Shown here: positions 3,613 through 43,599 of the stretch, in pieces
Position numbering within the stretch: position 1 is the stretch's first letter
Layout: the number at the start of each line of letters is the position of its first letter
Made by a program: the position numbers and the translations under genes
From: an uncultured Flavobacteriales bacterium
GTDB taxonomy: Bacteria > Bacteroidota > Bacteroidia > Flavobacteriales_F > PHOS-HE28
NCBI GenBank assembly: GCA_937872175.1
Contig: CALMPI010000010.1
Span: 1-64,000 of the forward strand
Direction: 5' to 3'
DNA length: 64,000 bases
Notes under the pieces: model-generated
Told to the model about the DNA's origin: nothing
The model's database searches: none
The model's input: only the letters and a program-made list of their open reading frames with translations

Positions 3613-3660
3613 TCCATCAACAATTGGTGGGGTTACCTTGGTAGGTCCCAGGCTTGTCGG

Positions 3661-3772
3661 CCTCCAGCCTCCAGCCTCCAGCCTCCAGCCTCCAGCCGCC
3701 AGCCTCCAGCCTCCAGCCTCCAGCCGCCAGCCAAAAGCCGAAGGCCGCCAGCCTCCGGCCACAGGCGGCCAA
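3661..3772. repeat. heptamer tandem array, CCTCCAG units
   Basis: Sixteen consecutive 7-bp units. Nine read CCTCCAG, two read CCGCCAG within the regular part, and the last six (3731-3772) are degenerate but keep the 7-bp register. On the minus strand the unit is GGCTGGA, fitting the GGC-N4 pattern of the other heptamer elements here. The degenerate end (cctccgg, ccacagg) matches the end of the array at 6204-6287. Confidence 0.9.
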
Positions 3773-6149: not shown

Positions 6150-6203
6150 CCTCATTGCGGCAGTGGCGGAGCCACTTACCTTCATTGGTCCATGTTGTGT
6201 CGG

Positions 6204-6287
6204 CCTCCAGCCTCCAGCCTCCAGCCTCCAGCCTCCAGCCTCCAGCCTCCAGCCGCAGGCTGCCAGCTTCCGGCCACAAGCTGTCCA
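6204..6287. repeat. heptamer tandem array, CCTCCAG units, copy 2
   Basis: Seven exact CCTCCAG units (6204-6252) are followed by five degenerate units in register (ccgcagg, ctgccag, cttccgg, ccacaag, ctgtcca). The final units correspond to those ending the array at 3661-3772. Confidence 0.9.
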
Positions 6288-17033: not shown

Positions 17034-20000
17034 ATGCAGTTCTCCCACCTGCACGTCCACACACAGTTCAGCCTCCTCGACGGGGCCGCCAGCATCCCCT
17101 CGCTCTACAAGAAGGCCCTGAAGGACGGCCAGCCCGCGCTCGCCATCACCGACCATGGCAACATGTTCGGTGCCTTCAAGTTCGTGGCCGAGGCCGGCAA
17201 GCACAAGAACGAGGATGGCAGCCTGAAGGTGAAGCCCATCGTGGGCTGCGAGTTCTACGTGGTGAACGACCGGCACAAGAAGACCTTCACCCGCGACGAC
17301 AAGGACAAGCGCTTCCACCAGCTGATGCTGGCCAAGAACGCCACCGGCTACAAGAACCTGAGCAAGCTGTGCTCCCTGGGCTTCATCGAAGGCTTCTACA
17401 GCAAATACCCGCGCATCGACAAGGAGCTCATTCTACAGTACCATGAAGGGCTCATCGCCACCACGTGCTGCCTGGGCGCCAGTGTACCGCAGGCCATCCT
17501 CCGCGCGGGCGACGGCGACCTCAGTGCGGCCGAGGCGGAGTTCAAGTGGTGGCTGGACCTCTTCGGCGAGGACTACTACGTGGAGCTGCAGCGGCACGGC
17601 ATCCCCGAGCAGGACAAGGTGAACGCCGTGCTGGTGCAATGGGCCAGGAAGTACAACGTGCCCATCATCGCCAGCAACGACAGCCACTACACCGACCAGG
17701 AGGACAGCAACGCGCACGACATCCTGCTGTGCGTGAACACCGGCGAGAAGCAGAGCACGCCCATCGCCACGGACGAGGACATCAACACCAAGGACAAGCG
17801 CTTCGGTTTCCCCAACGACCAGTTCTTCTTCAAGACCCAGGGGCAGATGGCCCAGACCTTCAGCGACCTGCCGGAGGCGCTGGACAACACGGGCCTCATC
17901 GTGGACAAGGTGGAGACCCTGAAGCTGAAGAAGGACATCCTGCTGCCCAACTACCAGCTGCCCGAGGGCTTCACCGACCAGGACGAATACCTGCAGCACC
18001 TGACGTACCAAGGGGCGATCAAGCGATATCTCGGCGCGAAAAAGGTGAATGGCGAATGGTCAATGGCGAATGGTGATCCCTCCCATTCACCATTCACCAA
18101 CTCCCATTCGCCGGAATTCGGCCTTTCCGGTGGCATCGATTCGCTCGATCCCAAGATCAAGGAGCGGCTGGACTTCGAGCTCTTCACCATCCGTACGATG
18201 GGCTTCGCGGGCTACTTCCTCATCGTGCAGGACTTCATCAATGCCGGCCGCAACATGGGGGTGCTGATCGGCCCGGGCCGTGGCAGTGCGGCGGGCAGCG
18301 CGGTGGCCTATTGCATCGGCATCACCAACATCGACCCCATCAAGTACGACCTACTGTTCGAGCGCTTCCTGAACCCGGACCGCAAGAGCATGCCTGATGT
18401 GGATACCGACTTCGACGACGAAGGGCGCCAGAAGGTGATCGACTACGTGGTGGAGAAGTACGGCCGGAACCAGGTGGCGCAGATCGTCACCTACGGCAGC
18501 ATGGCCGCCAAGAGCAGCATCCGCGATGTGTCACGCGTGATGGACCTGCCGCTATCGGAGGCCGACCGCTTGGCCAAGCTCATTCCGGAACGACCGGGGA
18601 TCGAACTGAACCGCGTGCTGCATGCGCCATTGGAGGGTGAGGGCAGCTTGAGGGCCAAGGAGAACTTCAGCGCGGAAGAGGTGGCGGCGGCCAAGCAGCT
18701 GCGCGAGATCCTGGAGAGCGGCGAGCTCACCGCCGACGTGCTGCGCGAAGCGGAGAAGCTGGAAGGGAGTGTGCGCGGGGTGGGCATCCATGCGGCCGGA
18801 TTGATCATCGCACCCAGCGACCTCACCGAGCATATCCCGGTGTGCACCAGCAAGGACTCGCCGATGCTCATCACCCAGTTCGACGGCAAGGTGATCGAGG
18901 ATGCTGGCGTCATCAAGATGGACTTCCTGGGGCTGAAGACGCTCACCATCATCCGCGATGCCCTGCGCATGATCGACGCGAACCACGGGGTGCGGATCGA
19001 CATCGACGGCATTCCGCTGGACGATCCGAAGACCTTCGCCCTGTACCAGCGCGCCGAGACCAACGGCACCTTCCAGTTCGAAAGCGCGGGCATGCAGAAG
19101 TACCTGCGCGAGCTGAAGCCCGACCAGTTCGCCGACCTCATCGCCATGAACGCCCTGTACCGCCCGGGGCCGCTGGAATACATCCCCACCTTCATCAAGC
19201 GCAAGCACGGTCTGGAGAAGATCGTATACGACCTGCCCGAGATGGAGGAGCTGCTGCGCGAGACCTACGGCGTGACGGTGTATCAGGAGCAGGTGATGTT
19301 GCTGAGCCAGAAGCTCGCGGGCTTCACCAAGGGCGATGCCGACGTGCTGCGCAAGGCGATGGGCAAGAAGGACCGCGCCACGCTGGACAAGATGAAGGGC
19401 AAGTTCCTGGAGGGAACGGCCCAGCGCGGCTTCGACGCCAAGGTGTGCGAGAAGGTGTGGACCGATTGGGAGGCCTTCGCGCAGTATGCCTTCAACAAGT
19501 CGCACAGCACGTGCTACGCCTTCGTGGCCTACCAGACGGCGTGGCTGAAGGCGAACTACCCGAGCGAGTACATGGCCAGCGTGCTCACGCACTCGCAGGG
19601 CAGCATCGACAAGATCACCTTCTTCATGGAGGAATGCCGGCGCATGGGCATCCCCGTGCTGGGGCCGGATGTGAACGAGAGCCAGCTGCAGTTCAGCGTG
19701 AACAAGCAGGGGCAGATCCGTTTCGGGTTGGGCGCGGTGAAGGGCGTGGGCGAAGCGGCGGTGGAGGCCATCGTGACCGAACGACAGGCCAACGGCCCCT
19801 ACAAGGACATCTACGACCTGATGCGCCGGGTGAACCTGCGCGCCGCCAACCGCAAGGCCTTGGAAAGCCTGGCCTATGCCGGTGCCTTCGATGGCTTCCC
19901 CAAGAGCCACCGCGCCCACTACTTCCACAGCCCCGGCGAGGGCAAGCCCACCTTCCTGGAGACCTTGGTACGCTACGGCCAGCAAAGCCAGGACGGCGCC

Positions 20001-21039: not shown

Positions 21040-21360
21040 ATGGCACTCGAACTGACCGACAACAACTTTGAGGAACTCGTCCTGAAGAGCGACAAGCCTG
21101 TGATGGTGGACTTCTGGGCCGAATGGTGCGGCCCCTGCCGCATGGTGGGCCCCGTGGTGGAGGAACTGGGCAAGGAGTACGACGGCAAGGCCGTGGTGGG
21201 CAAGCTCAACGTGGACCACAACCCCGGCATCAGCATGAAGTACGGCATCCGCAGCATCCCCACGATCCTGTTCTTCAAGAACGGACAGGTGGTGGACCGC
21301 AGCGTGGGCGCCGTGCCCAAGCCCCAGTTGGCACAGAAGCTCGAGGGCCAGTTGCAGTAG
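21040..21360 (+). CDS. trxA: thioredoxin
   Basis: 106 residues, the standard thioredoxin length. The active site WCGPC has Cys30 and Cys33 within VMVDFWAEWCGPC; Pro in SIPTILFFKNG is the cis-Pro loop. It reduces protein disulfides in the cytoplasm using thioredoxin reductase. A promoter box and a long leader precede it. The gene ends directly at the left arm of the heptamer-flanked four-helix-bundle element; its last codons (cag ttg cag) resemble the repeat unit. Confidence 0.96.
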   Translation: MALELTDNNFEELVLKSDKPVMVDFWAEWCGPCRMVGPVVEELGKEYDGKAVVGKLNVDHNPGISMKYGIRSIPTILFFKNGQVVDRSVGAVPKPQLAQKLEGQLQ

Positions 21361-21367
21361 GTAGTTG

Positions 21368-21411
21368 GGCAGTTGGCAGTTGGCAGTTGGCAGTTGGGCA
21401 GTTGGGCAGTT
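21368..21411. repeat. left heptamer arm, GGCAGTT units
   Basis: Four exact heptamers GGCAGTT (21368-21395) are followed by two octamer variants GGGCAGTT (21396-21411). They start seven bases after the trxA stop. Confidence 0.9.
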
Positions 21412-21438
21412 AGCAGCAAACCGGTGGCGCCAAGCCAG

Positions 21439-21446
21439 TAAGTTTG
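21439..21446 (+). promoter_or_regulatory. promoter box of the four-helix-bundle gene
   Basis: TAAGTTTG is an exact TAnnTTTG match 19 nt before the start codon, so the gene inside the element has its own promoter. Confidence 0.5.
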
Positions 21447-21465
21447 GTTTCCAACGCGAGCTGCC

Positions 21466-21840
21466 ATGGCCGGTCTGAAGGACCTGATCGTCTACAAGAA
21501 GTCGTTCGAGCTGTCGATGATGGTCTTCGTGTTGACGAAGAAGTTCCCGGTGGAGGAGCGTTACAGCCTTACCACGCAGATACGCAACAGCTCCCGTTCG
21601 GTGCCAGCCAACCTTGCTGAAGCGTATCGCAAACGTCGATACCTGGCCGCTTTCATCGCCAAGCTGACGGACTGCGACGGGGAGAACGCCGAGACCGACG
21701 TGCATCTGGATACCGCGCTGGCCTGCAACTACATCGCGCCTGAAGAACACGCTCCTGCCGCAGCCCTCAGCGCTGAGGTGGGCCGGCTGCTCAGTGATAT
21801 GATGAACAACCCGGGAAAGTACGGGGTGAAGGCCCGCTGA
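21466..21840 (+). CDS. four-helix-bundle protein (23S rRNA intervening-sequence protein family)
   Basis: 124 residues. The pattern LIVYKKSFELSMMVFVLTKK, then YSLTTQIRNSSRSVPANLAEAY, is the signature of the small S23/IVP-type four-helix-bundle family, first seen in 23S rRNA intervening sequences and also related in fold to the avd accessory proteins of diversity-generating retroelements. The biochemical function of free-standing members is not known. Here it has its own promoter box and is enclosed by inverted heptamer repeats between trxA and a DUF58 gene, unrelated housekeeping neighbours. GC of about 58 percent in a sampled line is below the flanking genes. Confidence 0.85.
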   Translation: MAGLKDLIVYKKSFELSMMVFVLTKKFPVEERYSLTTQIRNSSRSVPANLAEAYRKRRYLAAFIAKLTDCDGENAETDVHLDTALACNYIAPEEHAPAAALSAEVGRLLSDMMNNPGKYGVKAR

Positions 21841-21925
21841 TCCCGCCAGGAAGCACGACCTGCGTTCACGGTCCTTAGCTTGCCAAGCCCCGCTCAACAG
21901 CCAACTGCAACCTGTCCGACCGAAG

Positions 21926-21989
21926 AGACCCAGGACCCAGGACCAGCTCCCGGACCATCCGGCACCTGAACTGCCAACTGCGAACTGCC
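21926..21989. repeat. right heptamer arm, GGACCCA and AACTGCC units
   Basis: About three GGACCCA-like units (21926-21946) are followed, after a spacer, by AACTGCC, AACTGCG, AACTGCC (21969-21989). The latter are the reverse complement of the left-arm unit. A further partial unit (ccaactgcaacc) lies at 21901-21912. Confidence 0.8.
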
Positions 21990-22008
21990 TCCTGCTGAAC
22001 TTCTTCCG

Positions 22009-22932
22009 ATGCCCATCGAACAGCAGCACATCCAGGCCCTGAGCGCCCTCGAATTCAAGGCGCGGCAAGTGGTGGAGGGCTTCCTTGCCGGCCTGCACAA
22101 GAGCCCCTTTCACGGGTTCAGCGTGGAGTTCGCCGAACACCGCGCATACAACAGCGGGGAGAGCACGCGGCACCTGGACTGGAAGCTGTACGCCCGCACG
22201 GACAAGCTCTTCGTGAAGCGGTATGAGGAAGAGACCAACCTGCGATGCCATCTGGTGCTGGACGCCTCCTCATCGATGTACTTCCCCGCCCGCGGCGATG
22301 CCGGCGAGTTCAACAAGGTGGAGTTCGCGGTGCACGCGGCCGCGGCGTTCATCCAACTGCTGCGGAAACAGCGCGATGCCGTGGGTCTCACGGTGTTCCG
22401 CGAGGCGGTCGCGCTCACCGAGGAGGCCCGGAGCAACGCCGTTCACCTGCGCCATCTGACCCGTCACCTGGAGCAACTCCTGACCGCCGATGCACCGGCC
22501 CGCGGCCACCGCACCGGTCTGGTGGAGGCCCTGCACGACATCGCCCGGCGCGCCCATCGCCGCAGCCTGGTGGTGGTGTTGAGCGATATGCTGGACGATG
22601 CCGGACGCGAGGAGGAGGTCTTTGATGCCCTGCAGCACCTGCGGTTCAACAAGCACGACATCATCGTGTTCCATGTGGTGGACCGCAAGCGCGAGCTCGA
22701 CCTGGCGCTGGAGGACCGGCCCTACACGTTCGTGGATGTGGAGACCGGGGCCCAGGTGAAGGCGCATGCCGCGGAGGTGCGCGAGGGCTACCGTCAGGCC
22801 GTGGCCGAGCGTTGGCACCGGCTGAAGCTCAAATGCGGCCAATACCGGATCGACCTGGTGGAGGCCGATATCAACGCCGGCTTCGGCCCCGTCCTGCTGG
22901 AGTTCCTGACCAAACGGGCCCGGCTATACTGA
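22009..22932 (+). CDS. DUF58 domain protein (VWA-like)
   Basis: 307 residues. It has the DUF58 hallmark EHRAYNSGESTRHLDWKLYARTDKLFVKRYEEE in about residues 44-77 and a VWA-type metal site LDASSSM (DxSxS) near residue 84. DUF58 proteins are usually encoded beside MoxR ATPases and VWA membrane proteins; no such neighbour is present here. Cytoplasmic, no signal peptide. The start lies 13 bp after the right heptamer arm, so the element now occupies its upstream region. Confidence 0.9.
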   Translation: MPIEQQHIQALSALEFKARQVVEGFLAGLHKSPFHGFSVEFAEHRAYNSGESTRHLDWKLYARTDKLFVKRYEEETNLRCHLVLDASSSMYFPARGDAGEFNKVEFAVHAAAAFIQLLRKQRDAVGLTVFREAVALTEEARSNAVHLRHLTRHLEQLLTADAPARGHRTGLVEALHDIARRAHRRSLVVVLSDMLDDAGREEEVFDALQHLRFNKHDIIVFHVVDRKRELDLALEDRPYTFVDVETGAQVKAHAAEVREGYRQAVAERWHRLKLKCGQYRIDLVEADINAGFGPVLLEFLTKRARLY

Positions 22933-43500: not shown

Positions 43501-43586
43501 GTGGCGAGTGACGAGTGGCGAGTGAATGCCTGACGGCCCGAGCGGAGTCGATGAGCGGCATTCACTCGCCACTCGTCACTCGCCAC
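43501..43586. repeat. perfect 30-bp inverted heptamer repeat
   Basis: The left arm 43501-43530 (gtggcga, gtgacga, gtggcga, gtgaatg, cc) is an exact complement of 43557-43586, with a 26-nt spacer. Two more bases of pattern continue to about 43591. It lies between converging genes and could act as a terminator. The 7-bp period and GGCGAGT unit match the other heptamer elements. Confidence 0.95.
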
Positions 43587-43599
43587 TCGCCACACGAAC

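Follow-up and report, generated by a model that had tools for sequence, protein, structure and literature searches.

A probable mobile element, built like a 23S rRNA intervening sequence, with inverted heptamer arms between two protein genes of an uncultured Flavobacteriales bacterium

The 23S rRNA intervening sequence (IVS) of Coxiella burnetii carries an S23 ORF within a 28-bp terminal inverted-repeat stem and is excised by RNase III (PMC4990558). Two or three tandem heptamers, GACAGAT, precede the ORF in variable copy number, and a selfish or mobile nature has been proposed for this IVS (PMC4990558). In the RAYT/REP systems (BIME, REPIN), a single gene lies between inverted, palindrome-forming repeats that are also dispersed without the gene, and repeat and protein co-evolve (PMC2817692). 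Orphan tandem heptamers are described in two further reports, namely GGGAATC in Xanthomonas and GGGGA(T/C)T in Nostoc (PMC4692102), and TAACTGA in Beggiatoaceae and Cyanobacteria (PMC4679880). In a library of open-access papers, no account was found of free-standing genes of the 23S rRNA intervening-sequence protein (IVP) family that carry inverted heptamer arms.

Such a gene, with such arms, is present in the window, by which is meant the whole 64,000-nucleotide stretch analysed here. It lies between trxA (21040–21360, + strand) and a DUF58 protein gene (22009–22932, + strand), and family searches bore out both neighbours as named in the initial annotation. The left arm (21361–21411, + strand) begins right at the trxA stop codon and contains about six GGCAGTT-type units, with an exact period of 7 for four of them (21368–21397) and a spacing of 8 for the last ones. 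The right arm (21969–21989, − strand) consists of three AACTGCC units, inverted with respect to the left arm, with weaker similarity continuing to 22001; a degenerate extra right-hand unit, CAACAGCCAACTGC, is found at 21895–21908 (− strand). Complementarity between the arms is 95% over 21 nt, and a longer match (21363–21395 with 21969–22001) is 85% complementary over 33 nt. The sole ORF enclosed by the arms is the IVP gene of 124 aa (21466–21840, + strand). Repeat analysis thus confirmed the arrangement that had been read from the letters, GGCAGTT units on the left and inverted AACTGCC units on the right of one small gene. Upstream of the gene is TAAGTTTG (21439–21446, + strand), which we take to be promoter-like as it fits the Bacteroidota −7 consensus TAnnTTTG. 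In the predicted RNA fold of 21355–22008 the closing stem is formed by the two arms; the z-score of the whole element is −2.1, so this fold is just mildly better than those of shuffled sequences.

The assignment of the protein to the S23/IVP four-helix-bundle family also held. It scored 91.9 bits against PF05635 (23S_rRNA_IVP; cut-off 33.8) and 81.8 bits against TIGR02436 (cut-off 24). Its AF2 model is a four-helix bundle (pLDDT 96.5), and Foldseek matched this model to 2gsc, 2rld and Avd (4dwl), a protein of diversity-generating retroelements, with query TM-scores of 0.87 to 2gsc and 0.78 to Avd. Similarity to Pfam bAvd and NCBIfam Avd is weaker, the Avd model giving 28.5 bits against a cut-off of 80. 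By analogy with its solved relatives, the IVP protein is probably a pentamer. No catalytic domain is known for it, and the single 124-aa ORF of the window element gave no match to a transposase domain, PF01797 (Y1) included. The dN/dS ratio was 0.07–0.14 in three IVP pairs with estimable dS, while dS was saturated in four pairs; one same-site orthologous pair, at about 1% divergence, gave 0.61. Where dS was estimable, these comparisons indicate purifying selection on IVP genes.

Of the known cases, the S23-encoding IVS in the 23S rRNA of Coxiella comes closest to the window element. The two share the protein family, the terminal inverted repeats that form a stem around the ORF, and the tandem heptamers. 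They differ in that the Coxiella IVS occupies a single site in helix 45, whereas the window element lies between protein genes. In addition, the arms of IVP elements are themselves inverted heptamer arrays, and several elements with different words, as well as dispersed arms-only copies, occur per genome. No 23S rRNA was found at the window element; an Rfam scan of the window gave one tRNA and no family covering the element. The window element lies outside rRNA and so does not count as an rRNA IVS, though it is built like one. IVP elements (about 0.43–0.65 kb) are regarded here as probable mobile elements of one kind with the S23-encoding IVSs of 23S rRNA, but inserted between protein genes.

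Genes matching PF05635 were present in 38 of the 39 related genomes searched, and nine were found above the cut-off in the 4.3-Mb genome of the window (G000). Several of these nine have inverted arms, each with a different word that is common to both arms. Element L004, between sdhA and sdhB, has the arms GGTGAAT/CCATTCA, and element L009, between cysD and cysN, has GAAAGCG/TTTCAGC; these neighbours were identified by reading translations, without a family search. The other resident elements include L002 (hexameric GGGCAG/CTGCCC), L008 (GGCGAGT) and L005 (GCCTCCA/AGCTGGA).

To score the flanks of IVP genes, the upstream flank was aligned locally with the reverse complement of the downstream one, and the best alignment was taken. 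In the related genomes, a score of at least 16 was reached by 58 of 99 distinct IVP genes and by none of 355 control genes, and lag-7 tandem arrays accompanied 36% of IVP genes against 2.5% of controls. Period 7 and its multiple 14 are prominent; lag 8 reflects an octamer subfamily, GATCAGAN, and all remaining lags stay at or below 4%. After syntenic copies were collapsed to 53 clusters, 31.1 of the 53 still scored at least 16, against 0.3% of mispaired flanks. In 52 of 58 cases, the coding strand of the left arm is rich in G. The elements also favour the sense orientation in co-directional gene pairs: among 89 IVP genes with both neighbours, 58 point the same way as the two and 6 run against the two, a count that is noisy because it relies on longest-ORF gene calls. 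Two patterns had been named at the outset as speaking against a single unit, the gene without repeats and the random association of such repeats with other genes. Neither is seen as a rule, although arms could not be detected for roughly a third of IVP genes at the thresholds used.

The predicted 7-bp-periodic inverted flanks are thus far above controls in the class, and they recur in many phyla. One scan of GTDB genomes provided 80 named loci, 76 of them with usable flanks; 51 of these 76 scored at least 14, compared with 1.5% of mispaired flanks, and 45% carried lag-7 arrays. Armed loci in that scan came from Clostridia, Acidobacteria, Planctomycetes, Verrucomicrobia, Proteobacteria, CPR, Cloacimonadota, Ignavibacteria and Bacteroidota. 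Complementary flanks were also detected in 19 of 25 IVP genes of Gammaproteobacteria (versus 2%) and in 11 of 16 on cyanobacterial plasmids (versus 6.7%). A plasmid of Nostoc edaphicum carries TAGGGAGTAGGGAGT / TCCCTACTCCCTACT arms between its two ribonucleotide reductase genes. Three IVP elements of cyanobacterial plasmids (L299, L304 and L307) are located within CRISPR-Cas operons (cas6-cas4, cas10-cmr3).

IVP elements are absent from orthologous sites in relatives and are inserted at many sites, which differ between species. The trxA-DUF58 junction is conserved, and the empty junctions that the initial annotation had called for were found: in nine same-genus genomes it is 70–135 bp long and contains a hairpin resembling a terminator but no IVP gene, and, across the class, about 10 genomes of other families also have trxA-DUF58 without the element, most other families being empty. 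The terminator is no longer recognisable in G000, so the ancestral trxA-DUF58 segment looks replaced rather than cleanly interrupted. Three same-genus genomes (L045, L047 and L064) have an unrelated conserved ORF of about 150 aa at this junction, for which Pfam gave no family above the cut-off.

Empty sites at base level were obtained from plasmids. Two cyanobacterial plasmids that are 98% identical differ by the presence of an element between two genes (L303 versus L373), and further pairs are L302 versus L375 (96%), L308 versus L379 (94%) and L380 versus L383. Decayed or arms-only remnants (L374 and L377) occupy those same plasmid sites. From the alignments, presence and absence on these plasmids would represent gain or precise loss, and several independent sites differ. 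Target-site duplication candidates of 4–5 bp (GTAA, TTCTA) were seen in two plasmid cases; there was no clear one outside these two, and no consistent duplication. On the Nostoc plasmid pNPM1 (L382), several CTGACTC heptamer arrays lie scattered after a shortened IVP gene, in what looks like a decaying element. The element between sdhA and sdhB is about 100% identical between G000 (L004) and G009 (L088), and the flanking DNA is 88–98% identical; identity above that of the flanks suggests recent transfer or conversion. Together, the empty junctions and the family-wide 7-bp-periodic inverted flanks support the original proposal that gene and arms are one mobile unit, which we regard as very probably correct.

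Heptamer arms are also dispersed without the gene. A hairpin with the GGTGAATGG word lies in frame inside dnaE in the window (18044–18112, + strand; fold z −5.05) and shares its word with the resident element L004. This in-frame hairpin of about 80 bp is absent in most of the genus, and older, diverged versions occur in G009, G039, G006 and G043. The hairpin was considered as a scar-free insertion, and this was set aside; linker length varies in the genus and the exact ends are unreadable. About 17 hairpins with the GAATGG word, intergenic or in ORFs, are found in G000, where a single IVP element bears this word, and the folds of six GAATGG or similar hairpins gave z between −3 and −10. Two neighbouring cyclase-like ORFs (L183 and L186) share a GAATGG hairpin at the same position, a pattern that gene duplication would leave. 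The word of resident L008 recurs in the window as an arms-only inverted pair, GGCGAGT or GAGTGGC / CACTCGC (43503–43594, no strand assigned), at a gene end, flanked by a small ORF and a TerC-like gene. Two long GCCTCCA arrays without an IVP gene, carrying the word of resident L005, are located at 3660–3760 and 6203–6283 (no strand assigned). In 464 kb of G000 there are seven lag-7 arrays, against none after shuffling; one belongs to the window element, and each of the other six matches arms of resident L005 or L008. L095, an orthologous-site relative of L008, is the sole non-resident with as high a score. The other heptamer arrays of the window (3660, 6203, 18044 and 43503) belong to the same phenomenon as the IVP element.

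The likeness to RAYT/REP systems extends to this dispersal: the GGCAGTT arrays of the window element occur gene-less too (at C9:164560 and C16:10545), and the trait is strongest for the GAATGG family. The systems differ in that RAYT is a catalytic Y1/HUH transposase, whereas the IVP protein is without a known catalytic domain, and in that the IVP repeat is a tandem heptamer array and not a REP. Co-variation of repeat and protein is a further point of likeness. Even where the sites are unrelated, the heptamer word goes with the protein subfamily. Similar arms were seen in 1–2% of non-syntenic pairs at low protein similarity, in 36% at a similarity of 0.55–0.70 and in 53% above 0.70. At non-syntenic sites the Mantel correlation between word and protein was 0.20, and none of 2000 permutations was as large. 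A plain rank correlation over all pairs was not significant, because the signal sits in similar proteins alone. Orientation is kept, left arms being more like left arms than like right arms. GGCAGTT-like words are common to the subfamily of the window protein (L007, L036, L084, L086 and L090, together with L030, L124 and L127 from genomes of other families). At the syntenic sdhA-sdhB site (L004, L027, L028, L034, L075, L078, L083, L088 and L129), different words at apparently one junction across species suggest word turnover or repeated insertion.

In line with the initial annotation, we infer that the IVP protein recognises the folded arms, which would fit both the co-variation of word and protein and the same-word arms-only copies in trans. 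Such co-variation could also be expected from movement of whole elements without recognition, and is no proof of it. The reading that we consider probable, though with less assurance than mobility itself, is that of a mobile element resembling an IVS, with a protein that recognises the heptamer arms and also acts in trans on copies consisting of arms alone. The transcribed arms are predicted to fold into a long stem around the gene, which would make insertion between co-transcribed genes tolerable, and RNase III may cleave this stem, as it does in the IVSs of rRNA. The IVP protein would bind the heptamer stem, or that stem as single-stranded DNA, with a word preference that depends on the subfamily, and might then recruit a host nuclease or polymerase, or a transposase supplied in trans. 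The recruited machinery would insert copies of the element, and of hairpins made of arms alone, at new junctions, in a manner comparable to the mobilisation of REPs by RAYT.

A different division of labour is unlikely, although it fares best among the alternatives. A host system, for example an IS200/IS605-type Y1 transposase or replication-fork repair, would move any palindromic heptamer array, and the IVP protein would just protect or regulate the RNA. Hairpin substrates are known targets of Y1 transposases, and Y1_Tnp (PF01797) genes occur in 31 of the 39 related genomes, including G000. They were not found in G020, G030 and G036, which are 98–100% complete and all have IVP genes, and a Y1 transposase as universal motor is disfavoured by such complete IVP-bearing genomes. 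Movement of any array also fits poorly with a word that follows the IVP subfamily and with inverted arms that enclose IVP genes and not other genes.

Somewhat less likely still, the arms would serve an ordinary resident gene in regulation or RNA processing, as a terminator, an RNase III site or a site for autoregulatory binding, with heptamers growing by slippage and gene-less hairpins arising as independent terminators. The location of elements at gene ends agrees with this, as does the variable heptamer number among Coxiella strains (PMC4990558). In G027, moreover, a bare heptamer hairpin, GTTCAAT/ATTGAAC, replaces the trxA terminator (L060, 2424–2516; fold z −10.1), and from this case heptamer hairpins may act as terminators. 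Against it, copying between loci is needed to account for the empty sites with 94–98% identical flanks, the in-frame hairpins in dnaE and other ORFs, and the gene-less copies that bear the word of a resident element.

RNA-mediated retro-insertion, in which the IVP protein, like Avd, would deliver hairpin RNA to a reverse transcriptase, appears improbable. It draws on the shared four-helix-bundle fold and the bAvd and Avd profile similarity, and on the strong sense bias in operons. Unlike in diversity-generating retroelements, no reverse transcriptase was found in G000, where RVT_1 (PF00078) had no match in a nearly complete genome, and none was among the listed ORFs beside the IVP gene. RVT_1 occurs in 9 of the 39 relatives, against IVP genes in 38, and dependence on a reverse transcriptase is disfavoured. 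Chance adjacency of tandem heptamers and a small gene, which has nothing in its favour past the single locus, is refuted for practical purposes by the 58 of 99 IVP genes against 0 of 355 controls and by the repetition of this result in independent samples.

IVP elements may also be compared with MITEs and with the orphan heptamers. MITEs likewise occur as short hairpins at numerous sites, in some cases in frame within genes, but for IVP elements no parental transposase was recognised and target-site duplication is not consistent. The orphan heptamers share the intergenic 7-nt tandem arrays, with 70–75 inverted pairs in Xanthomonas, and differ in that the passages of PMC4692102 and PMC4679880 drawn on here make no link to an IVP gene. 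These families look like IVP-element arms, a candidate link. The structure 2gsc is XCC0516 of X. campestris, an IVP from the same genus as the GGGAATC repeats; no close Xanthomonas ortholog of XCC0516 was present among 369 genomes drawn.

More broadly, and tentatively, since we hold it somewhat short of an even chance, PF05635 proteins may define a class of enzyme-less mobile elements in many bacterial phyla. A four-helix-bundle pentamer without catalytic function would read a 7-nt tandem word and, via host machinery, copy itself and gene-less hairpins into operon junctions and rRNA; rRNA IVSs and the heptamer families of cyanobacteria, xanthomonads and Bacteroidota would then be products of one system. 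A mobile element encoding just a small non-enzymatic protein would be unusual, if true. The findings offer a testable role for a widespread protein family whose solved structures, 2gsc and 2rld, are annotated as of unknown function, and one possible cause for heptamer repeat families that were reported separately and unexplained. They connect the IVSs of rRNA with a far larger group of elements that sit in ordinary operons (RNR, sdh, cysDN, cas and tra), and the pairing of word and protein may find use as a sequence-specific nucleic-acid binding module.
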